Source of the DNA: a virus
IMG/VR virus record: IMGVR_UViG_3300037606_000599
Coordinates: 1 to 25,775 of that record
Length of the DNA stretch: 25,775 nucleotides
Strand: one strand, 5' to 3'
How positions within the stretch are numbered: position 1 is the stretch's first letter; every line of letters begins with the position of its first letter. The notes beneath the pieces are model-generated. The model did not search any database. It worked only from the letters and a program-made list of their open reading frames with translations, and was not told the DNA's origin. Position numbers and translations under genes: made by a program. This document shows positions 6,353 through 24,279 of the stretch, piece by piece.

Positions 6353-7680
6353 AGAAATCAGAGTTCATGTCCAATGTAAACATGATAGCACGGAACATGC
6401 TGCAGAAAGCGGGCCTTACCTTTTCGGGTAAGCGAGATTTGTATGAAGTCCTTGGTTACAAAGAGTTCTTATGTCCCGCTGATTACAGGGCAAGGTATGA
6501 ACGTGGGGACATTACCCTGTCCATTGTTGATGCCTATCCTAATGCTGCTTGGGCATGTCCTCCCACGCCTAGTGATGATAAAGAAGCTGAAGATGAAACG
6601 CCATGGGAAAAGGAATTCAAAGTTTGGGCAAAGGAATTGAAACTTTGGCAAACAATTCGCAAGGCCGACATTCTCGCACAACTAAACGAATTCAGTATTG
6701 TCCTTTTCGGGATCAGGGGGGACAATGATTTGAAAGAACCCGTCATCGGCAAGAAACCGATTGCTTACTTGAAAGCCTACGGTGCCGACAATGTGACAAT
6801 TTGCAAGTGGGTCACCGATATGTCAGATGAGCGATTCGGTTTGCCTTTAACATACAAAATCCAGTTTGTTTCAAAACCAGGCGAGGGTGTCAGAGAAGCA
6901 ATCGAAGTCCATCATTCAAGGGTCTTGCATATTGCCGAGCGAACAATGGAAAGCGAAGTGGTAGGCATCCCATTTCTTAAACCCATTTGGAACACATTAG
7001 ATGACCTTGACAAAATCAGAGGAGGTAGTGCGGAAGTTTTTTGGTTGAATGCTCGGGCGGGTTTGAATTTGAACGTTTCACCTGAATTTGATGTTCCTGA
7101 TCAAGAAAGCATCAAAGACAACGTAGATAATTATCAAAACAATTTAACTAGGGTTCTTTATACTCAAGGAATCGACGTTAAAGTATTGTCCCAAGCAATT
7201 ACTTCACCAAAGGATCAATTCAATCTGTGCCTGACAATCATCTCAGCATACACCCGCATCCCCCGGCGAATTCTCGAAGGTAGTGAACGGGGTGAGCTTT
7301 CGAGTAAGCAAGATGAGAACAATTTCGATAGTAGGGTCAAGGAAAGACGAACTCTTTTTTGTGAACCCACCATCCTCGAACCGTTGATGAAGAAACTGAT
7401 GAATTTGGGTGTAATCAAAACCGTCGAATATATCTGGAGCTGGCCTGAACTTGTTACTCAATCTGAAAGCGAAAAAGCTGCTATTGCATCCACTAAAGCA
7501 ACTGCCATCAAAACCTTCACCGATGCAGTCAATGGGAATCGGGTTGTTACCGACCGACAATTCATGGAAGACATCATGAACATGCCCTATCTGGAAGATG
7601 AGATCATAGAAGACCTCGAAACCGAACAGAAAGAAATTGATGAAAGCGGACCCGACCAATACAATAACCCTCCGGCGTAA
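6346..7680 (+). CDS. Portal protein, DUF1073 type
   Basis: A 444-residue protein following the large terminase with a seven-base overlap. It has features of the DUF1073 phage portal family: an N-terminal helical part that ends YLGYKEF-like text before CPADYRARYERGDI, the ITLSIVDAYPNAAW segment, a central beta wing (LKAYGADNVTICKW), the HHSRVLHIAERT motif, and IPRRILEGSERGELSSKQDEN, which is the most diagnostic stretch. The C-terminus is acidic (EDEIIEDLETEQKEIDESGP). Portals form the dodecameric ring at one capsid vertex through which DNA passes. Some databases name this family after the anti-CBASS protein Acb1; here nothing suggests that activity. An alternative start at Met 8 (6367) is possible. 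Confidence 0.86.
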   Translation: MVKKSEFMSNVNMIARNMLQKAGLTFSGKRDLYEVLGYKEFLCPADYRARYERGDITLSIVDAYPNAAWACPPTPSDDKEAEDETPWEKEFKVWAKELKLWQTIRKADILAQLNEFSIVLFGIRGDNDLKEPVIGKKPIAYLKAYGADNVTICKWVTDMSDERFGLPLTYKIQFVSKPGEGVREAIEVHHSRVLHIAERTMESEVVGIPFLKPIWNTLDDLDKIRGGSAEVFWLNARAGLNLNVSPEFDVPDQESIKDNVDNYQNNLTRVLYTQGIDVKVLSQAITSPKDQFNLCLTIISAYTRIPRRILEGSERGELSSKQDENNFDSRVKERRTLFCEPTILEPLMKKLMNLGVIKTVEYIWSWPELVTQSESEKAAIASTKATAIKTFTDAVNGNRVVTDRQFMEDIMNMPYLEDEIIEDLETEQKEIDESGPDQYNNPPA

Positions 7681-8455
7681 AGCGGCCGCGGAAGTCGATG
7701 CTCGCTTTAACAGATTGAAGCGAGCCATTCGAAGTGCCTTCAAAGATGGTGGTCTCAAGACAAACATTGAGCGAGCAAGACAAGGGCGATTTGATGATTT
7801 ATTAGATCAAGTCAAGGTCGATGAATTCAACCGATATTTTCATGATCAGGTTGAGCTTGAAATTTTAAGACAAGACAATCTTAGTTATATTGAAAAGGGC
7901 AAAGAAGATCATTGGTTAAACAAACATATTGGCGAAGGATATAGAAGGGGGGCTATCAAAATGAGATTTGCGGCCGAGCGAATGATGCCCAACCTTTTGA
8001 AGCTTCCCGATTACAGTCCTTTCTCAAATCCCCAGCATGTTCAGCGCGCCGAACTCATTTTCAAAAAGGCATACTCGGACTTGGAAGGAGTCACCCAAGT
8101 GATGGAGAAGCAAATGAGTAGAATTCTAGCTGATGGCATCTTGCGTGGTCACTCGGTAAAGAAGGTTGCAAAAGAGATGGAAAGTCGAGTCGATAAGATT
8201 GGCAAAACTAGAGCGAAGCTGATTGCTCGGACTGAGATTATTGAAAGCCATTCCTCGTCTGCAATTATGGAAGCTGATCTTCTTGAACAGCAAACGGGGG
8301 TTACCATAAAAATGAAATGGATCAGCGCAGGGGATAGCAGGGTTCGTCCCGAGCATATTGACCGGGATGGTCAAGTTTACACAAGAGCGGAAGCATCAAA
8401 TCTGATCGGCGAACCTAACTGTAGATGCGCTTTGTCGGCCGTATTTGACCTCTGA
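7640..8455 (+). CDS. Phage minor head protein, Mu F/SPP1 gp7-like
   Basis: A 271-residue protein overlapping the portal gene by 41 bases. I chose ATG 7640; the codon before it is TTG and could also serve. The C-terminal ~90 residues carry the MuF/SPP1 gp7 signature: ARTEIIESHSS (near 196-206), DSRVRPEHIDRDGQVY, and the Cys motif GEPNCRCALS near 256-265. The first ~170 residues are helical and basic and may bind DNA or the portal. Family members sit inside or at the portal vertex in a few copies and are ejected or assist head assembly. No toxin domain is fused at the end, unlike some MuF proteins: it stops directly after the Cys motif. Confidence 0.87.
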   Translation: MKADPTNTITLRRKAAAEVDARFNRLKRAIRSAFKDGGLKTNIERARQGRFDDLLDQVKVDEFNRYFHDQVELEILRQDNLSYIEKGKEDHWLNKHIGEGYRRGAIKMRFAAERMMPNLLKLPDYSPFSNPQHVQRAELIFKKAYSDLEGVTQVMEKQMSRILADGILRGHSVKKVAKEMESRVDKIGKTRAKLIARTEIIESHSSSAIMEADLLEQQTGVTIKMKWISAGDSRVRPEHIDRDGQVYTRAEASNLIGEPNCRCALSAVFDL

Positions 8456-8513
8456 AAAATAAACCTTGCATGAATGACTGTTCCTTAAATACCGTCCCAA
8501 ATAACAAGACGAA

Positions 8514-9911
8514 ATGAGCAAATTATTATTCCTAAGCAATATCGCCCTTTCGGGACGACCGATGCGGAAGATGCTCAATGGATTAACTCATTTGGTCATC
8601 CCTGCGGTAGCAATTAAAGAAGGCGTTTTGAATAACATCTTCTATCCTAAAGAGGAACTCGAAAGCTTCTCGAATACATGGAACGGTGTCCCCGTCCCAG
8701 TCAATCACCCGCTACTTGCCGGCGTTCCCGTCACTGCGAACAGTACCGAAAGTGAAGAAAATCAAAACATCGGTCGCTTCTACAATGTGATATTCGACGA
8801 CTCATCCATTAAAGGTGAAATTTGGATCAATATCGAAAAGGCCGAAAAGTTGAATTTCGGTGACTTGATTCAACAACTCGAGTCTGGTGAATTGATGGAA
8901 GTTTCCACGGGATTGCATGCTTTCACCCGCGATGAAACGGGGGTTTTCAATGGCAAGTCTTATGACCGAGTAATCGAAAGTATTCGTCCAGATCACCTCG
9001 CCCTCCTTCCCGATAGCGAAGGTGCCTGTTCAATTGCAGACGGTTGTGGTGCAATGCGGACGAATTGCGGGGGCGACACTGATTGTGTTTGTGAAACGCC
9101 CAAACCCACTTGGATCAATCGACTGCGTGGTTGGTTTGGTTTGAACATTGATACTTCTTTCGAGGATCGCGAGCGCATGGTAAGTGGTGCACTGCGTGAA
9201 ACTTACGGCAAAGATTCATTCATTTACACTCTCAAGACCTATGATGGCTATGCTATCTTCGAAATGGGACCTTCGCTTTATAAGCAAAATTACACAATTT
9301 CAGACAATAAGGTAACACTTCAAGGCGACCGAATTGAGGTCAAAACTGAAGTTTCTTATGTCCCAGTTCTTAACGAAACCGAAAATAAAAATATGGACCC
9401 AACTAAACGGGTGGGACTTGTCAATGCACTAGCACTTTTGCTGGTGGCAAACAATGTCGCCGCCGTAACTGATAAAAGCAAAACCGATCTGGCTGCACTG
9501 CCTGATGATATGCTCTCTAATATGGCGAAAACCTACAAGCTGAATGATGACGGCACCCCCGTTGTTGAACAGCCCGCCCCGGCAAAGGTCGAACCTGTCA
9601 TTGTGGACAATGGTATTACATCTCAAGAGCGCCAACTGCTCAATGAGATGCTTGCCGAAAAAGCACAGCGCGTGAAGGACAAGGCGACTCAACTTGCCAA
9701 TGTCCGGAAGGATCTTGCACCCGAGGTCATTGCTACTTTTAATGAAGCAGCAATTGACGCCATGCTCGTTGCGATTGGAATTCATAGCAATACCAATTTT
9801 GGTCCTGCCGGTGGATTCACACAACCACAGACCCGCGATGCATATCGTTCCCCGTCGGTTTACCTCGCCAATGAGGAAGAAACCCCTAACAAGGAGGCAG
9901 TGAAAAACTAA
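8514..9911 (+). CDS. Prohead protease/scaffold fusion, DUF2213 type
   Basis: A 465-residue protein in three parts. Residues ~20-180 look like a DUF2213/capsid-maturation protease: PVNHPLL (His65), MEVSTGLH (Ser131) and DHLALLPDSEGACS (His161) provide a plausible His-Ser-His set as in herpes-type prohead proteases. A Cys cluster (CSIADGCGAMRTNCGGDTDC, 174-193) follows. Residues ~215-285 (LRETYGKDSFIYTL, YAIFEM, LYKQNYTI) form a small beta domain seen inside several such phage proteins. The C-terminal ~160 residues are Ala/Asp/Lys-rich and helical, suiting a scaffold that would be cleaved and expelled. The 58-base gap before it is the largest in the head cluster until the terminator and might hold a promoter, but no clear one is seen. 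Confidence 0.75.
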   Translation: MSKLLFLSNIALSGRPMRKMLNGLTHLVIPAVAIKEGVLNNIFYPKEELESFSNTWNGVPVPVNHPLLAGVPVTANSTESEENQNIGRFYNVIFDDSSIKGEIWINIEKAEKLNFGDLIQQLESGELMEVSTGLHAFTRDETGVFNGKSYDRVIESIRPDHLALLPDSEGACSIADGCGAMRTNCGGDTDCVCETPKPTWINRLRGWFGLNIDTSFEDRERMVSGALRETYGKDSFIYTLKTYDGYAIFEMGPSLYKQNYTISDNKVTLQGDRIEVKTEVSYVPVLNETENKNMDPTKRVGLVNALALLLVANNVAAVTDKSKTDLAALPDDMLSNMAKTYKLNDDGTPVVEQPAPAKVEPVIVDNGITSQERQLLNEMLAEKAQRVKDKATQLANVRKDLAPEVIATFNEAAIDAMLVAIGIHSNTNFGPAGGFTQPQTRDAYRSPSVYLANEEETPNKEAVKN

Positions 9912-10339
9912 TGGCTAAATTAAAATCTGAAACAATTATTCTGAAAGGTGAACCTAACCTTTTTGAAGGTGCTGCCGCGGCAGTGCTCAAGCCGGGGCAT
10001 GTCGTTCAATATACAGGACTTACCTTTTCGAAGCAATCAGTCGCTTTGAAAAAGACACCTCTTCGTGTTGTTACTGAACAAGATTTGATCGGCAAAGGAA
10101 TCGAAAGCACGATTCCTAGCGGCGAGAATGTCACTGTTCATTTCGCAACCCCGGGCCATATCGTTCAAGCAATGCTTCCGGCTTCGGCCGCCGCCATTGT
10201 CAAAGGCGACCAGCTCGAAATGAAGGGTGATGGAACCTTGCGTAAGATCACGACCGGTGCCGCAATTGCCGAGGCATGGGAGTCACTCGACAACAGCGCA
10301 AATGCCGCTGAAGTCCTCATTCAAGTTCAAGCTATCTAA
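9911..10339 (+). CDS. Head decoration protein (putative)
   Basis: A 142-residue beta-rich protein directly before the major capsid gene, the usual place for capsid cement proteins. Sequence features include GHVVQYTGLTF, a glycine- and alanine-rich middle (PASAAAIVKGDQLEMKGDG) and AEAWESLDNSANAAEVLIQVQ, resembling small trimeric decoration proteins of the DUF2190 or lambda D-like type. It would bind the outside of the expanded shell and stabilise it. The gene starts immediately at the stop of the protease/scaffold gene. It is one of the few genes with an AAGGAGG (9891-9897), although 13 bases before ATG is long for a Shine-Dalgarno. Family assignment comes mostly from position and size. Confidence 0.6.
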   Translation: MAKLKSETIILKGEPNLFEGAAAAVLKPGHVVQYTGLTFSKQSVALKKTPLRVVTEQDLIGKGIESTIPSGENVTVHFATPGHIVQAMLPASAAAIVKGDQLEMKGDGTLRKITTGAAIAEAWESLDNSANAAEVLIQVQAI

Positions 10340-10342
10340 TTC

Positions 10343-11323
10343 ATGAAACTAGGAATCTCAACTGCCACCGATTTTATCGGTAACTCCAACTCCGGAAACG
10401 GAGCACCCTTCATCAACTCCCGGGGACAACTTCAGCAAAATGTGAATACCACTTTGCTTGAAGATGAACATCGTCGAATTGATGCTGCCGTCCTCGCTGA
10501 ATCCCGTGCCATTCGTGGTGCATCGGAACATCTTCGGACTCGCGGACTAGTCGTCACCCTCGGTTCAATCGGGGTCCTCCTTTCGGACTACAACCGTGCC
10601 GGTAACATGACCGACGCTGAAGTTGATTTTGACGGCCGCTCTCGTGGTTTGAAAGATCGTCTGACGTTTGATCAAGTGGGTGTGCCAATTCCGATTTTCC
10701 ATAAAGAATGGGAACTCGGCGCTCGCCAACTCACCGCATCACGAAATGGTAACTCTCGTCTCGACACTACGCAAGCTCAGATTGCAACTGAGATCGTGCA
10801 AGAAAAATTCGAAAGTCATATCTTCAACGGACTTCCCGGATTGACTCTTGATGGTCGCACAGTCTACGGATACAATACTCACCCAGACCGCAATACCTAT
10901 ACTCTCCTAGCGGATTGGACAAGTGCAGCTGCTGGGGCTGCTATGATCACCGATCTGATCAATATGCTTAAACTTCTGAAAGCAGACAATCAGCGCGGAC
11001 CATTCATGGTTTATGTGGGGGATAACATTTGGCCAACACTTGAGCAGGACTACTCAACTGCGAAAGGAGACAACACAATCCTCCAGCGGATGCTCGCTAT
11101 TCGCGGTGTCGAGGGAATTGAGAACAGTGAATTTATGGATGCTGATACGGTGACCGTGGTTCAGATGAAATCGAAGACCGTTGACCTCGCCATCGCGGCG
11201 GATTTGCAGAACATTCAGTGGAGTGTTCAACCCATGTCCACAAATTACATGGTATACCTGATGGGTGCCGTTCGCGTCAAATCCGAAAAGAATGGACAGT
11301 GCGGCATTGTTCATGCGACCTAA
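10343..11323 (+). CDS. Major capsid protein
   Basis: A 326-residue protein with the HK97/encapsulin-like fold expected of a major capsid protein. Useful landmarks are the helical N-terminal arm with TTLLEDEHRRIDAAVLAESR, LSDYNRAGNMTDAEVDFDGR, VPIPIFHKEWELGARQL (the E-loop/peripheral strand region), a peptide resembling NGLPGLTLDGRTVYGYNTHP, the spine helix AAMITDLINMLKLLKADNQ, PFMVYVGDNIW, and a C-terminal beta strand near IQWSVQPMSTNYMVYLMGAV. Short N-terminal extension and no separate scaffold domain fit the presence of the DUF2213 protease/scaffold upstream. It lies between the decoration protein and a small protein, and a strong terminator follows 300 bases later, giving a high-expression capsid unit. 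Confidence 0.88.
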   Translation: MKLGISTATDFIGNSNSGNGAPFINSRGQLQQNVNTTLLEDEHRRIDAAVLAESRAIRGASEHLRTRGLVVTLGSIGVLLSDYNRAGNMTDAEVDFDGRSRGLKDRLTFDQVGVPIPIFHKEWELGARQLTASRNGNSRLDTTQAQIATEIVQEKFESHIFNGLPGLTLDGRTVYGYNTHPDRNTYTLLADWTSAAAGAAMITDLINMLKLLKADNQRGPFMVYVGDNIWPTLEQDYSTAKGDNTILQRMLAIRGVEGIENSEFMDADTVTVVQMKSKTVDLAIAADLQNIQWSVQPMSTNYMVYLMGAVRVKSEKNGQCGIVHAT

Positions 11324-11329
11324 AATATT

Positions 11330-11626
11330 ATGGCAAAGAAAACCCGAGCATATGTCCTGATTTCAGGGAGGCATGTTCATTACGACGGCAAAACTTACTA
11401 CAAGGGTGATAATATCGAATTGAATCCCCGTATGGCTCGGTTCCTTGTGAACAAGGTCAAGGCCCAAGAGGTCGCCGAACCCGCCCCTACGGGCGAGCAG
11501 GGCACCCTAAATACCCCTGCTGATCGGGAGGAATTGATTGCCGCACTCGAATTGGCAGGGGTTGACTTTGATTTGAGTGCATCAGACGAAGACCTCTTCG
11601 CTGCTTGGCAATTGATCACTGAATAA
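11330..11626 (+). CDS. Small head protein, unknown function
   Basis: A 98-residue protein six bases after the capsid gene. The first ~45 residues form a short beta unit (YVLISGRHVHYDGKTYYKGDN, IELNPRMARFLVNK) like the small N-terminal domain found in several phage head or tail accessory proteins. The second half has an acidic helical domain (REELIAALELAGVDFD, ASDEDLFAAWQLI) resembling a HeH/SAP-type helix-extended-loop-helix. Position would fit a lambda FI-like packaging factor or head completion protein, but I do not recognise a family. It is the last gene before the hairpin terminator at 11641-11672. Confidence 0.65.
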   Translation: MAKKTRAYVLISGRHVHYDGKTYYKGDNIELNPRMARFLVNKVKAQEVAEPAPTGEQGTLNTPADREELIAALELAGVDFDLSASDEDLFAAWQLITE

Positions 11627-13348: not shown

Positions 13349-13906
13349 ATGGCCTTAACTAATACAGACTTATTCATAGTTGAACGCGCTGGCGTCCAAT
13401 ACAAGATGACCGCCCAGCAACTTGCCGACTTCAATGGGGCGGTTCACGAATATACTGCAAACACAATTGGTGAAAGAGATGCAGGTACTCTTTCCCCGAC
13501 ACCTCCTGGGGGTGGGTTGAAAGTTGGCGACCGTGTCTTTGTGGTTGATGCGAGCGCCGACCTCACCGTCACCGCCGATTGGGCCGTGTATCGTGTTGGG
13601 TCCACCGGGCCGATTGTTTATGACAAGATCCAGGAAAAGGAGTCCCTTGACCAGGTTGTCAGCGGCGGTGGCAACCTGTCCTATACCCCATCGCCGACAA
13701 ATGGGGTTGTCACGAATTCAGGTGGAACGGATGCGACGATTCCTCTCGCGACCGATACTAACGCGGGGTTGGCGAGTCCGGCGATGTTTAACGCAGTCCA
13801 CCTCGCAGCAAGTGCCGGAGGGACCGCCGCCTCGAATCCCGTTGCCGTCAACGGGGGAACTCAAGTCATCACCTTTAATATCACTTCGCTTACCTCTTTA
13901 CCGTAA
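13349..13906 (+). CDS. Virion fibre-like protein, first of a three-gene cassette
   Basis: A 185-residue protein with a short anchor-like start (TDLFIVERAGVQYKMTAQQL) similar to phage fibre or virion proteins, a middle domain with TVTADWAVYRVGSTGPIVYD and VGDRVFVVDA, and a threonine/glycine/serine-rich end (SGGTDATIPLATDTNAGLAS, SNPVAVNGGTQVITFNITSL). Its N-terminal motif recurs in the next gene (TDVIYLERIGIPGRQTAAEM), so the two are likely related at that end. No catalytic motif. It stands where a tail tube gene would be expected, and its codon use seems richer in C and G than neighbours; both suggest an accessory virion component such as a head or neck fibre. Confidence 0.6.
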   Translation: MALTNTDLFIVERAGVQYKMTAQQLADFNGAVHEYTANTIGERDAGTLSPTPPGGGLKVGDRVFVVDASADLTVTADWAVYRVGSTGPIVYDKIQEKESLDQVVSGGGNLSYTPSPTNGVVTNSGGTDATIPLATDTNAGLASPAMFNAVHLAASAGGTAASNPVAVNGGTQVITFNITSLTSLP

Positions 13907-14490
13907 TGGCAGTCCAAGGAACAGATGTTATCTATCTCGAACGGATAGGAATTCCGGGAAGGCAAACCGCCGCCGAGATGGCGGCATATATGGCAAGCAT
14001 TGCTCAAACCTTGAGTAATAAAACCATTACTGCACCCGTATTTTCAGGGACCTTTACAGGGACTTATACTATTGGAGGAACCCCCACCTTTCCGACATCG
14101 GTTGCCACGCTCACGGGTACCCAGACGTTTTCCAATAAGACGCACACGGACCCCATTTTCATAGCATTCCGCGAGACTCAAAACGCCATCGGGACCGTCA
14201 CCACCACGCACACGTTTGTCATCACGACCGGCACGATCAAGACGGCGACCCTCACCGCCTCTACTGCTTGTGTGTTTACGATGCCATCGGTCACTCAAGG
14301 CCGCTCGTTTACCGTGTTTTTGAAGCAGGCTGCAAGCACCGGAAACGGGACAGCGACGTTCACGGGTGTTAAATGGCCGGGCGGAACCGCCCCCGTCATC
14401 ACGGCAACCGCTGGCAAAATGGATATCCTAAGTTTCGTCAATGACGGAACTAATTGGTATGGCTCAATCCTCCAAAACTTCACCCCGTAA
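13906..14490 (+). CDS. Fibre-like protein with NKT repeats and phage C-terminal beta domain
   Basis: A 194-residue protein overlapping the previous stop (TAATGG). After an anchor-like N-terminus it has the two repeats LSNKTITAPVF and FSNKTHTDPIF, a motif widespread in tail and neck fibres. The C-terminal ~80 residues (FTVFLKQAASTGNGTATFTG, VKWPGGTAPVITATAGKMDI, FVNDGTNWYGS) form a small beta domain common at fibre ends, often implicated in trimerisation or host contact. No enzyme motif is visible. Together with genes on both sides it forms a cassette of probable surface-binding proteins. Confidence 0.72.
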   Translation: MAVQGTDVIYLERIGIPGRQTAAEMAAYMASIAQTLSNKTITAPVFSGTFTGTYTIGGTPTFPTSVATLTGTQTFSNKTHTDPIFIAFRETQNAIGTVTTTHTFVITTGTIKTATLTASTACVFTMPSVTQGRSFTVFLKQAASTGNGTATFTGVKWPGGTAPVITATAGKMDILSFVNDGTNWYGSILQNFTP

Positions 14491-20196: not shown

Positions 20197-21906
20197 ATGC
20201 CCGACTTAGAAACAAACAATCCAATTTCCCCGACTCTGGCAACAAAGGTCCCGACGGTCTCTCCGCTTGGATACCAGACAAACGCACAGATGGCAGCACT
20301 CGTCACCAAGGCGGATGTCGGATTGTCAAACGTAGAGAACTTTTCCCGCGCTTCGATGGCATCGACCGGGCCGATTGCTGATGCTATTGCGGCTGGTGGG
20401 GGGATGGCTGGGTATCTCAATGTTCTCGCTTACGGATCAGCCGGAGCCGCAGACTTTTCGATTGTCGTCAACGCGGCATTAGCCGCCGCGAGGCCGTTAG
20501 GATTCGGGGTCTACATCCCAAACGGGACCTACACTTGCTTGACTGCAATCACCGGGCTTAGCCATGGCTCATTTATCGTCGGAGAAAACAGATACAAAAC
20601 CGTTTTAGATTTTGTTGGTGCCGCGAAAACTGTCAACGGAATCGAAGTGCGCGCCGATCCAACATCGCATCTCCATGGAACTGGTAGCGTCTCGCGTGCT
20701 GGTGTTCATAACTTGTATCTAAAAGGCCATTCGACTAACGGAACATCAGCGACAGGGAATGGCGTGATGATTGTAGAGGAAGGAGATAGTCATACCTCAG
20801 ACTGGCTAGAACTTCAAAACGTCGAAATCAGGAATTGGAATGTCGGATTTTACTCGCAGGATGCCGCTCAAACAATCGCCCTTGGAACAAACATTGCCTA
20901 TTGCGATATAGGAGTCTCACTCAATGGCGGCTCGAACAATACTCACCGATTTAGCCAATGTGGATTTGGTAGAAATCGAGTTGGAGTAGTCGTCAATGGT
21001 GGCATTGGTTCCGTTTTCACGTCATGCGAATTTGGACTATGCACATTGACTGGATACCTCATCAAAGCATTTGCGCTCTGCAAAATCGAAAATGCAAACT
21101 GGGAAGGAAACTTGCGAGATGTAACGGTAGAAGGCTCGGGGAATTGTTCTATCACAAACGCAAACAGCCTTCGTGGAATCGCTGCCGCCACTGAGCCATT
21201 ATGGGTCCAAGCTGGCGGACAACTCACTCTCTCGCAAGTGGGAGCAGCGGGCGGAGAAGAAGGAGTTAACCTCATCAAAGCTGATTCGCTGGCGGTTGTC
21301 ACGATAACATCTTCGCCATCAATCATGCGTTTGAGCAATATCGGATTAGCGACAGACACATATGATACACTTCAAGAGGACACATTTGGACAAAAATTTG
21401 TCCCGCATTTGATACCGACTCGCTATTTCACGCAGATCAATACGAATTTTCCAAAAGTCTCTACTCGGGGAATTATCGTGAGGCGAGTAGGACTTGCGGG
21501 AACAACTCCTGACGACATACTTACCTGTGTGGCTGACGTAGGATCACCGCAGACATATTCAACTCAATCGCTTTTGAATCAAACTCTTGAGAAAAAACTA
21601 ATGACCGCCACAAGGGTGACGGCGTCTCAAGTTATTAAGGACCAGGTTTTGGAGCAAAACTCTGGATCTCTCCTCACGTTTGACATAGACGCTGATGCGC
21701 GATGGGTTAAAATTAGAGGAGGCGGAACTGGTGGATACCAAGTAAACCCGCCCGCTGACGCAAAGATCCGTTGGCTGAACGCCGAGTATTCTTATATCTC
21801 GACCAAACTTAATAATTTTGGCTGCATAGAAATCCATTACGAAACAGCAACGCGATGGATCGTCACAGCGACAAGCGCGGAATCTGAATTTGACGGAACT
21901 TTGTAA
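20197..21906 (+). CDS. Tailspike/tail fibre, right-handed beta-helix (pectate lyase-like)
   Basis: A 569-residue probable receptor-binding protein. The first ~85 residues form an anchor with the fibre motif ALVTKADVGLSNVENFS. LNVLAYGSAGAADFSIVVNA followed by GFGVYIPNGTYTC (around 85-125) is the entry of a Pectate_lyase_3/tailspike beta-helix (AYGA-x-GDGxxDDT-like, here degenerate). The following ~230 residues are repetitive short strands (VEIRNWNVGFYSQD, NIAYCDIGVSLNGGSNNTHR, CGFGRNRVGVVVNGGIGSVF). The C-terminal ~200 residues form separate beta domains, with RWVKIRGGGTGGYQVNPPAD near the end. Such spikes often degrade surface polysaccharide, but a catalytic pair cannot be assigned. First gene of the inserted block. 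Confidence 0.78.
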   Translation: MPDLETNNPISPTLATKVPTVSPLGYQTNAQMAALVTKADVGLSNVENFSRASMASTGPIADAIAAGGGMAGYLNVLAYGSAGAADFSIVVNAALAAARPLGFGVYIPNGTYTCLTAITGLSHGSFIVGENRYKTVLDFVGAAKTVNGIEVRADPTSHLHGTGSVSRAGVHNLYLKGHSTNGTSATGNGVMIVEEGDSHTSDWLELQNVEIRNWNVGFYSQDAAQTIALGTNIAYCDIGVSLNGGSNNTHRFSQCGFGRNRVGVVVNGGIGSVFTSCEFGLCTLTGYLIKAFALCKIENANWEGNLRDVTVEGSGNCSITNANSLRGIAAATEPLWVQAGGQLTLSQVGAAGGEEGVNLIKADSLAVVTITSSPSIMRLSNIGLATDTYDTLQEDTFGQKFVPHLIPTRYFTQINTNFPKVSTRGIIVRRVGLAGTTPDDILTCVADVGSPQTYSTQSLLNQTLEKKLMTATRVTASQVIKDQVLEQNSGSLLTFDIDADARWVKIRGGGTGGYQVNPPADAKIRWLNAEYSYISTKLNNFGCIEIHYETATRWIVTATSAESEFDGTL

Positions 21907-22811
21907 TGAAACTCCCCCTCACCCTCGCCATCACCCTAACTACGATTTCTCACGGGATCGTATTTAAGGATGAGAGCGCGTTTGACCCGAATCGGTTCTT
22001 GAATTTCTCTACCGTCCCAACCGCAAATCCGAATTTCGAGTTTCGAGATTTTGATCTTTCGGCGGTTGGGTGGATCAACGATAAGGCAGTGACTCTGATC
22101 TCTCCGAAATACATTCTTTACGCCGCGCATTTTCGTAATGGAGCGGGAACAACTGTCAGTTTCATGTCTCCCACCGGGGTGCTTGTGACGAGTGAAATAC
22201 TCATCAATCACCCCGCTCTTATCGCCATCAGCGGATCCGTTTCTGATCTCCAACTAGCGGAGTTAAAAACTCCAATCACGTTCGATCTCGGGATCACCCC
22301 GATGGCCTATTTCGACAATCCGACGAACATACCCGATGCTGAATACTACCATCAAAACAATCAACTTCTGATCGGTGGCGCAAAACAACGGTTTGGGACA
22401 GCCGTTGGCGATTTCGCAGGAAACTCTCCACTCGATCCCGGTGGTAACGGGAGGGGTAACGGTTCAGGATATTTATGGGGAGTATTCACCGATGAACGGA
22501 ACTCTGCGACAACAGCGACAACTGTCGGTGGCGATTCTGGGGGGCCGACGATGGCTATCATTGGAGGGCAGCTCGCATTAACTGGGATTCATTACAGCGC
22601 CGTCTCAGGAACCTACCGGGGAGAGCCATTTCGACAAACCGACGATTCGTTTGTCCCGCACCAGCCATTCATTGATCAAATCAACGCCGTCATGGCCAAA
22701 GACGGGTATTCCATGATGAAATTTTCTGACAGCATTCCCGAGCCAAAGCCTTCATTGATACTATCAATCACAGCCATAGTGCTATTTGTATTCTACCGGA
22801 AACGACCATGA
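21906..22811 (+). CDS. Trypsin-like serine protease with PEP-CTERM-like sorting tail
   Basis: A 301-residue protein overlapping the tailspike stop by one base (TAATG). It starts with a short signal-peptide-like hydrophobic segment (MKLPLTLAITLTTISHG). The trypsin fold has a full triad: LYAAHF (His75), SDLQLAELKTPI (Asp114) and GGDSGGP (Ser211). The C-terminus is a PEP-CTERM-type signal: IPEPKPS (PEP at 278-280), a hydrophobic span SLILSITAIVLFVFY and terminal RKRP. In bacteria, exosortases process this signal for proteins linked to extracellular polymer or the outer envelope, mostly in Gram-negative taxa including Verrucomicrobia and Planctomycetes. A phage copy would be exported in the infected host, for surface modification, receptor removal or lysis. 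A simple C-terminal membrane anchor is the alternative. It precedes the spanin candidate with an ATGA overlap. Confidence 0.85.
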   Translation: MKLPLTLAITLTTISHGIVFKDESAFDPNRFLNFSTVPTANPNFEFRDFDLSAVGWINDKAVTLISPKYILYAAHFRNGAGTTVSFMSPTGVLVTSEILINHPALIAISGSVSDLQLAELKTPITFDLGITPMAYFDNPTNIPDAEYYHQNNQLLIGGAKQRFGTAVGDFAGNSPLDPGGNGRGNGSGYLWGVFTDERNSATTATTVGGDSGGPTMAIIGGQLALTGIHYSAVSGTYRGEPFRQTDDSFVPHQPFIDQINAVMAKDGYSMMKFSDSIPEPKPSLILSITAIVLFVFYRKRP

Positions 22812-23485
22812 AAAACATCTCAATCATCGCCATCGCGTTTGTTCTCGCGTCCTGCTCATCTGCCCCTCCGGGGATGCCGCAGGAGAAAACAGTAGATTCA
22901 GTTTACGTTCCGGCAATCCCAAAAGCCCCCGACATTTCAGAGGTTGAAAAAACAGTTCGGGATCTGTCAGAAGAGGTTGGCGATGCTCGTGATGAGGTTC
23001 GCGCCGCGTCTGATAAGGTGGCCGAGGGAGTCAAAGAATCCGTCCTGCTTCGGGAGTTGATTGAAAAAGAATACAACGCCGCCGAGGTGACGGCACAGAC
23101 CGCGCTAGAAAATATCCGTTACGCGGCAGGTAGGACGGAAACAAAGCTCAATGATACAGTCGGGCTATTGGAGGCGGCATCATCGAAACTGATGGCCGCA
23201 AACTCTCGATCAAACGACCTATCTTCAAAAATATCCGCTCTCAAATCCGAGATCGCCGTTCAATCATCCCGAGTCGATGAGTTTGCCGCGATGGCCGAAA
23301 GCGCCAACGGCCAGGTGGTTCGGGCTAATGCTCAAAAAGACAGCTTCCGAAATGCTCTAAGCTCTGCCGAAGGGGAGAAAATCGCTCTAATGCGCGAACG
23401 GGATAAGGCCAGAACACATAGAATGTGGCTATCTGTCACAATTGTAATCCTCATCCTCGCCCTATTCATTTCCATCAAATTCTAA
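22808..23485 (+). CDS. Unimolecular spanin candidate (lipoprotein, coiled coil, C-terminal TM)
   Basis: A 225-residue protein. It begins MKNISIIAIAFVLASCSSAP: a short lipoprotein signal with lipobox LASC (13-16, lipidated Cys16, Ser at +2, so outer-membrane sorting in E. coli terms). Residues ~35-200 are a long heptad-rich charged helix (VEKTVRDLSEEVGDARDEVR, VQSSRVDEFAAMAESANGQ). Residues ~206-225 (MWLSVTIVILILALFISIKF) are a transmembrane helix with almost nothing after it. Outer-membrane lipid anchor at one end and inner-membrane helix at the other is the design of u-spanins such as phage T1 gp11, which fuse both membranes at lysis. It lies directly before the endolysin and holin-like genes. 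It is longer than T1 gp11. A structural periplasmic lipoprotein is the alternative. Confidence 0.72.
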   Translation: MKNISIIAIAFVLASCSSAPPGMPQEKTVDSVYVPAIPKAPDISEVEKTVRDLSEEVGDARDEVRAASDKVAEGVKESVLLRELIEKEYNAAEVTAQTALENIRYAAGRTETKLNDTVGLLEAASSKLMAANSRSNDLSSKISALKSEIAVQSSRVDEFAAMAESANGQVVRANAQKDSFRNALSSAEGEKIALMRERDKARTHRMWLSVTIVILILALFISIKF

Positions 23486-23489
23486 AATT

Positions 23490-24050
23490 ATGAAAAACAT
23501 CTCAATTGAAGAGCTTCAATCCCACGTTGGAGCAAGTCCCGATGGCCACTGGGGTCCGCTCTCAATCGCTGCCTGCCAGGATCATTTGAGAAAACTGATA
23601 CCCTACCCTAACCCATGGCCAAAGAGCGATGAATCGAGCCTCCGCGCATTTTACGGCAAGGCCGGGGATGAGAGCCAACTGGTCAACCTCGACGTGTCTG
23701 GATTCGGGGTGAGGTATGAGGGGCAGGAAATAAAGACGATCCGAGGCCACGGGAAACTCGCATCATCCCTCGGGCGGATCATTAAACAACTCTCGATCCA
23801 TCACCCGGAGATCCTCGCCGACTATAATGGATGCTATAATTTCCGCAAGATGAGAGGAGGCTCAAGCTACTCACTCCATGCCCGAGGCGCAGCTATTGAT
23901 TTCATGGCCGGGGAAAATGGCAACAAAACCAGTTGGCCATCCAAGGCGACAATGCCAATCACCGCAATGGAGATATTCGCCCGTGATGGATGGCTTTCCG
24001 CCGGAGCGTTTTGGGGTCGAGACGCGATGCACTTTCAAGCAACTCGATAA
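23490..24050 (+). CDS. Endolysin, peptidase M15-like (D,D- or L,D-peptidase)
   Basis: A 186-residue predicted cell-wall endolysin. Zinc-binding residues of the M15 family are visible: SLHARGAAIDF (His130 and Asp137, the SxHxxGxAxD signature) and DAMHF (His181, with Asp179 placed as catalytic acid/base). The N-terminal ~40 residues (LQSHVGASPDGHWGPLSIAA, CQDHLRKL) look like a small peptidoglycan-binding-like helical unit. No signal peptide is present, so it would need the holin. M15 peptidases cut peptide cross-links. It shares its first 17 bases (ATGAAAAACATCTCAAT) with the preceding gene. Confidence 0.88.
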   Translation: MKNISIEELQSHVGASPDGHWGPLSIAACQDHLRKLIPYPNPWPKSDESSLRAFYGKAGDESQLVNLDVSGFGVRYEGQEIKTIRGHGKLASSLGRIIKQLSIHHPEILADYNGCYNFRKMRGGSSYSLHARGAAIDFMAGENGNKTSWPSKATMPITAMEIFARDGWLSAGAFWGRDAMHFQATR

Positions 24051-24051
24051 A

Positions 24052-24279
24052 ATGGAAATATCAACTGAATGGGTCCTTGGATCATTTCTCGCTTTAACCG
24101 GAGTCATCGGGACGATGGCGAAACTGATTTACAATGCTCTATCTGAACGCATAAAGGATCAGAATACGTGCATCCATAGGCTACAAGACGACGTTGATCG
24201 ACTGTCAAAAGGTTGTGGGATTTACGAGTGTGCATGGGCGCATCGGGGCGAGATTAGGACAGATATCAAACAAACGTAG
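24052..24279 (+). CDS. Holin-like small membrane protein
   Basis: A 75-residue protein with one hydrophobic segment near the N-terminus (~8-28, VLGSFLALTGVIGTMAKLIY) and a hydrophilic, helical C-terminus (DQNTCIHRLQDDVDRLSKG) resembling small coiled-coil holins or XhlA-like membrane proteins. It starts one base after the endolysin stop (TAAAATG), and lysis context supports holin function. I chose ATG 24052 rather than an upstream in-frame start at 23878, which would be a shadow in the endolysin. Several Cys residues (43, 56, 61) are unusual and might allow disulfide-linked oligomers. Only one span makes it a class III-like candidate; sequence alone cannot prove it. Confidence 0.6.
   Translation: MEISTEWVLGSFLALTGVIGTMAKLIYNALSERIKDQNTCIHRLQDDVDRLSKGCGIYECAWAHRGEIRTDIKQT

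Follow-up and report, generated by a model that had tools for sequence, protein, structure and literature searches.

A virus-encoded trypsin-like protease with a PEP-CTERM-like tail and homologues among secreted proteases of Verrucomicrobiota

The 25.8-kb virus record IMGVR_UViG_3300037606_000599, analysed here over 25,775 nucleotides (hereafter the window), carries a siphovirus-type late operon that includes a gene for a trypsin-like (predicted S1-fold) serine protease (21906-22811, + strand). The 301-aa product has a signal-like segment at its N-terminus and a PEP-CTERM-like tail at its C-terminus, and the occurrence of such a tail on a protease of Verrucomicrobiota type suggests that the virus uses the surface-sorting machinery of its host. 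We propose, with the odds about evenly balanced, that the gene is a captured exported protease gene of Verrucomicrobiota type, expressed late, whose product would be sorted by exosortase and would cut proteins of the host surface or envelope. That the phage delivers a protease of its own to the exosortase of the host for placement on the host surface or in the matrix during infection is, in our estimate, just as likely to be right as wrong; if true, this handover would be the first case of a phage substrate for the PEP-CTERM/exosortase system. It would also mean that this sorting route is usable by a virus, indicate a probable host group for the phage and provide a compact test substrate for exosortases, enzymes whose biochemistry is poorly known.

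The late operon runs from terminase, portal, capsid, tail and tape measure genes to a tailspike gene and the protease gene, and continues with genes for a spanin-like protein, an M15 endolysin and a small membrane protein, followed by DUF1833 and NlpC tail genes. The upstream neighbour of the protease gene (20197-21906, + strand) codes for a 569-aa tailspike-like protein with a pectate-lyase-type domain (PF12708, E=2.7e-6). The downstream neighbour (22808-23485, + strand) codes for a probable unimolecular spanin, recognised by hydropathy, by its coiled coil and by weak matches to Rz-like spanins; it combines an N-terminal LASC lipobox, a long coiled coil and a C-terminal transmembrane span (residues 203-225), and no relative of it was found in the phage collection. 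Next come the endolysin, an M15-type peptidase (23490-24050, + strand; PF13539, E=1.6e-6; phrog_17001 endolysin, E=3e-17), and a 75-aa protein with one transmembrane span by hydropathy (24052-24279, + strand), a possible holin or holin partner for which a search for family matches returned none. The initial annotation had located the protease gene between tailspike and lysis genes inside a virion operon, and this was confirmed by overlaps of 1 nt with the tailspike gene and of 4 nt with the spanin-like gene. Because the gene overlaps both of its neighbours it is part of the virion/lysis operon, which makes it unlikely that the arrangement is an assembly chimera or that the gene is a stray piece of host DNA. 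The tailspike, protease, spanin-like and endolysin genes overlap or lie only a few bases apart. The GC3 of the last three lies at 0.52-0.58, against 0.40-0.46 for the tape measure, tailspike, DUF1833 and NlpC genes, as if the stretch from protease to endolysin (21906-24050) had been acquired as a single module.

The catalytic domain covers about residues 41-262 (22026-22691, + strand), as judged from homologues and from a search of PDB with a profile of the family, in which the top matches were trypsin-fold chains (prostasin, E=8e-9, elastase and kallikrein). More specifically, the proposed triad of His75 (in YAAHF, codon 22128-22130), Asp114 (in VSDLQ, codon 22245-22247) and Ser211 (in GGDSGGP, codon 22536-22538), all on the + strand, proved exactly invariant, like M1, F31, D210 and P214, once the phage protein had been aligned with 16 cellular homologues. 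The three residues stand in trypsin order, with GDSGGP around the serine. General profiles responded weakly to the phage protein alone (Pfam Trypsin, PF00089, E=0.19) and a PHROG search with it returned no match; the same Pfam profile matched 3 of the 17 family members, with a best E of 1.5e-6. An AlphaFold model of the phage protease was poor (pLDDT 39.5), and the structural matches listed for it, none of which reached E<0.001, were nearly all trypsin-type proteases, which is consistent with a trypsin fold.

At the N-terminus the layout is K2, LPLTLAITLTTI and S-H-G. The first 17 residues, MKLPLTLAITLTTISHG (21906-21956, + strand), align with the signal peptides of cellular homologues and form a putative signal peptide, with cleavage expected after S-H-G. 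The signal-like character first attributed to this segment is thus supported by alignment, whereas its hydropathy stays below the window threshold of the hydropathy scan. No further membrane span was seen by hydropathy between this segment and the PEP motif.

The protein ends in SIPEPKPSLILSITAIVLFVFYRKRP, of which residues 277-301, IPEPKPSLILSITAIVLFVFYRKRP (22734-22808, + strand), make up the tail: the PEP motif (22737-22745), a hydrophobic part (about 22752-22796) and the basic end RKRP (22797-22808). IPEP occupies residues 277-280, 21 residues before the end of the protein, and the sole strong hydrophobic span of the protease by hydropathy, at residues 280-299, is followed by RKRP. A fixed architecture test was applied, which looks near the stop for PEP, an acid-free hydrophobic stretch and then at least two K/R. 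None of 5763 background ORF tails passed it, and the protease ORF was the only one to pass among the 139 ORFs of the window; shuffling the last 26 residues gave 73 passes in 200,000 (0.04%) and shuffling the whole protein gave 2 in 100,000. The layout claimed at the outset therefore stood, but the curated profiles did not recognise it above their cut-offs. With TIGR02595 the isolated tail scored 12.5 bits, below the curated cut-off of 16, and PF07589 gave no match, although the two best family matches of the isolated tail were both PEP-CTERM profiles. Isolated tails of cellular homologues scored 18.7-27.9 bits with TIGR02595, and the phage tail was the lowest scorer among all PEP tails tested (12.5 against 18.7-31.6 bits); as whole proteins, the cellular homologues L135 (13.8 bits) and L136 (15.4 bits) also fell below 16 despite clear motifs. 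A local model derived from 30 PEP-CTERM tails of Verrucomicrobiota gave the phage tail 0.1 bits, which is background level, so that the argument relies on the layout of the tail and on homology over the full length of the protein. Since layout and homology agree with PEP-CTERM proteins and the score lies below the curated threshold, we call the predicted tail PEP-CTERM-like.

Homologues of the phage protease were found chiefly by sampling genomes of Verrucomicrobiota. Among eight PVC genomes examined first, the two with homologues were both Verrucomicrobiota; phylum-wide, 17 of 388 Verrucomicrobiota genomes held homologues at E<=1e-4, and within the family that holds G243 and the Verrucomicrobiaceae MAG G003 the count was 52 of 150 genomes, with a best E of 5.7e-32. 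A second phylum sample gave homologues in 1 of 380 genomes; it is read as Planctomycetota because a Planctomycetota centre (G006) returned the same genomes. The sampling covered Verrucomicrobiota and, apparently, Planctomycetota, a scope that matters because PEP-CTERM is also found in Pseudomonadota. The genome of L045 (G396) is titled Alphaproteobacteria bacterium IP29b_bin.190, a title that is probably wrong, as it draws the same phylum set as G006.

The cellular homologues constitute an unnamed family of secreted trypsin-like proteases found in the present analysis, and they occur in several builds: a protease followed by PEP-CTERM, a protease extended by long domains at the C-terminus, and a lipoprotein. 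At least 13 carry PEP-CTERM tails (two in L122 and one each in L130, L135, L136, L145, L185, L200, L211, L212, L213, L214 and L216). L200 (G834) aligns with residues 8-300 of the phage protein at 31% identity (E=8e-28), tail included, its tail TPEPSSTLLLLSATFGFALRRKR running against that of the phage, and the alignment with L211 spans residues 1 to 300, again with the tail. The PEP of the phage protein occupies the same alignment place as that of the cellular homologues. The phage protein shares with L200, L211, L212, L213, L122 and L136 the order of signal peptide (putative in the phage protein), trypsin-like domain and PEP-CTERM, the triad and a length of about 280-320 aa, with 28-31% identity end to end to L200 and L211; it differs from them in that they are cellular and have clearer tails, and many of their relatives end differently at the C-terminus or start as lipoproteins. 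Two of the PEP-CTERM proteases are tandem paralogues in Verrucomicrobium sp. BvORR034 (L122, 1405-3246). The lipoprotein-type branch, likewise from Verrucomicrobiota, comprises L123, L140, L146, L217-L220 and L222, which start with a lipobox cysteine and lack a PEP tail.

The properties of the tail also bear on an alternative explanation, which we regard as possible but unlikely, in which the tail is merely a C-terminal anchor and the protease, tethered in the inner membrane, would cut envelope proteins on the periplasmic side and act at lysis together with the spanin-like protein and the endolysin, with no part for an exosortase. The scores below the curated cut-offs and a span bulkier in L/I/V/F than those of cellular tails speak for such a lysis aid, as do the position of the gene immediately upstream of the spanin-like, endolysin and holin-like genes and the GC3 that it has in common with the adjoining lysis genes. 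An anchor of this kind fits less well with the two PEP-CTERM profiles at the head of the matches to the isolated tail, when the C-terminal span of the spanin-like protein matches no PEP-CTERM profile, and with a PEP motif located where cellular homologues have theirs.

Exosortase sorting would further depend on machinery in the host. The organism in which the PEP-CTERM domain was originally identified, Verrucomicrobium spinosum, carries 65 copies of it (PMC1569441), and six Verrucomicrobiota genomes gave 14-102 PEP-CTERM matches each. The search for an exosortase in candidate hosts that had been suggested with the initial annotation was made in homologue-bearing Verrucomicrobiota genomes, and PF09721 was encoded in all 18 of those tested. 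Compared with the PEP-CTERM/exosortase (EpsH) system (Haft 2006, PMC1569441), the phage protein has the same PEP motif, single transmembrane span and basic end, and the same signal-like start with no other span between; the differences are that the substrate is phage-encoded, that its profile score is sub-threshold and that exosortase was seen only in homologue-bearing genomes. As regards the host, the presumed origin of the protease gene points to Verrucomicrobiota. The genes for virion and replication functions have their closest counterparts, at about 42-47% identity, in phages that infect Pseudomonas, Burkholderia, Stenotrophomonas and Variovorax, which is too distant for host assignment. 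A search of 388 Verrucomicrobiota genomes for a close terminase gave one weak match only, and a search for CRISPR spacers matching the window phage gave none; the best 32-bp DNA match was rejected as a spacer, as it sits inside a moxR-type ATPase gene and not in an array.

Overall, we propose that the phage captured a cellular gene for a secreted protease of a trypsin-like type that many Verrucomicrobiota carry, sorting tail included, and would express it late, along with its genes for tail and lysis proteins. The product would be exported by the Sec route and its signal peptide removed, after which the C-terminal span would tether it to the inner membrane, the enzyme lying on the periplasmic side. 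The host exosortase would then recognise the PEP motif, cut the tail and transfer the protease to the outer surface or to exopolysaccharide. The protease is thus probably handled by the host exosortase and active late, at the cell surface or in the periplasm; the first steps of this scheme draw on sequence, and the exosortase step, the most likely fate of the tail, rests on the tail itself and on the exosortases found in likely hosts. The most likely substrates are proteins of the host surface or associated with its envelope, and their cleavage may help progeny to leave cell and matrix and perhaps prevent readsorption, the most likely purpose given the position of the gene. The low profile scores of the tail and the kinship of the virion and replication genes, with no close terminase in the 388 Verrucomicrobiota genomes and no spacer match, count against this reading.

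It is known that phages exploit the Sec export and the lipoprotein sorting of their hosts, and superinfection-exclusion lipoproteins are phage-encoded proteins exported into the host envelope. These resemble the present protein in that a phage protein is directed to the host envelope, and differ from it in being lipoproteins or small membrane proteins rather than proteases with a sorting tail. A displayed protease might remodel the surface and exclude superinfection by stripping the protein receptors of competing phages, a role that export and display would suit and that draws on the same sorting evidence; we nevertheless consider it rather improbable, since the position in the late operon suits release better and no separate transcription unit was seen. 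The initial annotation knew of no described phage that passes a secreted enzyme to the host exosortase, and a search of the open-licence literature on phages, prophages and viral genomes agreed with it, which is weak evidence: neither a description of a phage PEP-CTERM protein nor a report of the PEP-CTERM/exosortase route for a phage protein was found, and the passage concerned in a Microcystis phage paper deals with host PEP-CTERM genes and not with phage ones.

Close relatives of the phage protease were absent from the viral contigs, phages, plasmids and genome contigs searched. A scan of viral contigs with the family alignment revealed two distant relatives, L142 and L143, and from one of these a third, MW202510 (UOF78081), was reached. 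The trypsin-like gene directly follows a gene for an Mtd_N-domain (fibre/spike-type) protein in L142 and a gene annotated as rhamnogalacturonan lyase in MW202510, and in L143 it comes after a large gene without clear family. All three share with the window protein a distantly related catalytic domain, and in at least two a fibre/spike gene adjoins; they differ in having their own N-terminal domain and no signal peptide or PEP-CTERM tail, and in belonging to another clade. In the tree the window protein was placed, with moderate support, among secreted Verrucomicrobiota proteases, its exact neighbour being uncertain because the branches are long, and the three other phage proteases fell near the cellular lipoprotein branch. 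A clade uniting them with the window protein was rejected (p-AU 0.0149 with 24 rows and 0.0063 with 34 rows). Given this separate placement, this type of protease seems to have entered phages at least twice, in a secreted and a fibre-neighbouring form, and among the phage proteases found only the window protein seems to have kept (or gained) export and sorting signals. The least probable reading, that of a virion-associated tail component digesting surface proteins at adsorption, draws on these fibre- or spike-type neighbours and on the place of the window gene directly after the tailspike gene, but it is at odds with the lack of signal peptide and tail in the other three proteins, with the rejected grouping (p-AU 0.006) and with export features that would be superfluous for a virion part assembled in the cytoplasm.

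In L142, a 166-kb phage contig, what we take from our own reading of the sequence to be a papain-like protease lies close to the Mtd_N-type tropism protein, the trypsin-like protein and a sulfotransferase (7046-11508), and the phage contig L143 (G789) has trypsin-like protease matches in two places. The relatives of the window phage itself, L001 and L002 (78-80% in terminase and capsid), end before the protease locus. L186 (44% in the tail-tip protein), whose contig start lies just upstream of the corresponding region, has an amidase, small membrane proteins, DUF1833 and NlpC at the corresponding place, and it has a 90-aa one-span protein where the window has its 75-aa protein. Lastly, two adjacent genes at 13349-14490 of the window have similar starting motifs, TDLFIVERAGVQYKMTAQQLADF and TDVIYLERIGIPGRQTAAEMAAYM, and are apparently paralogues.
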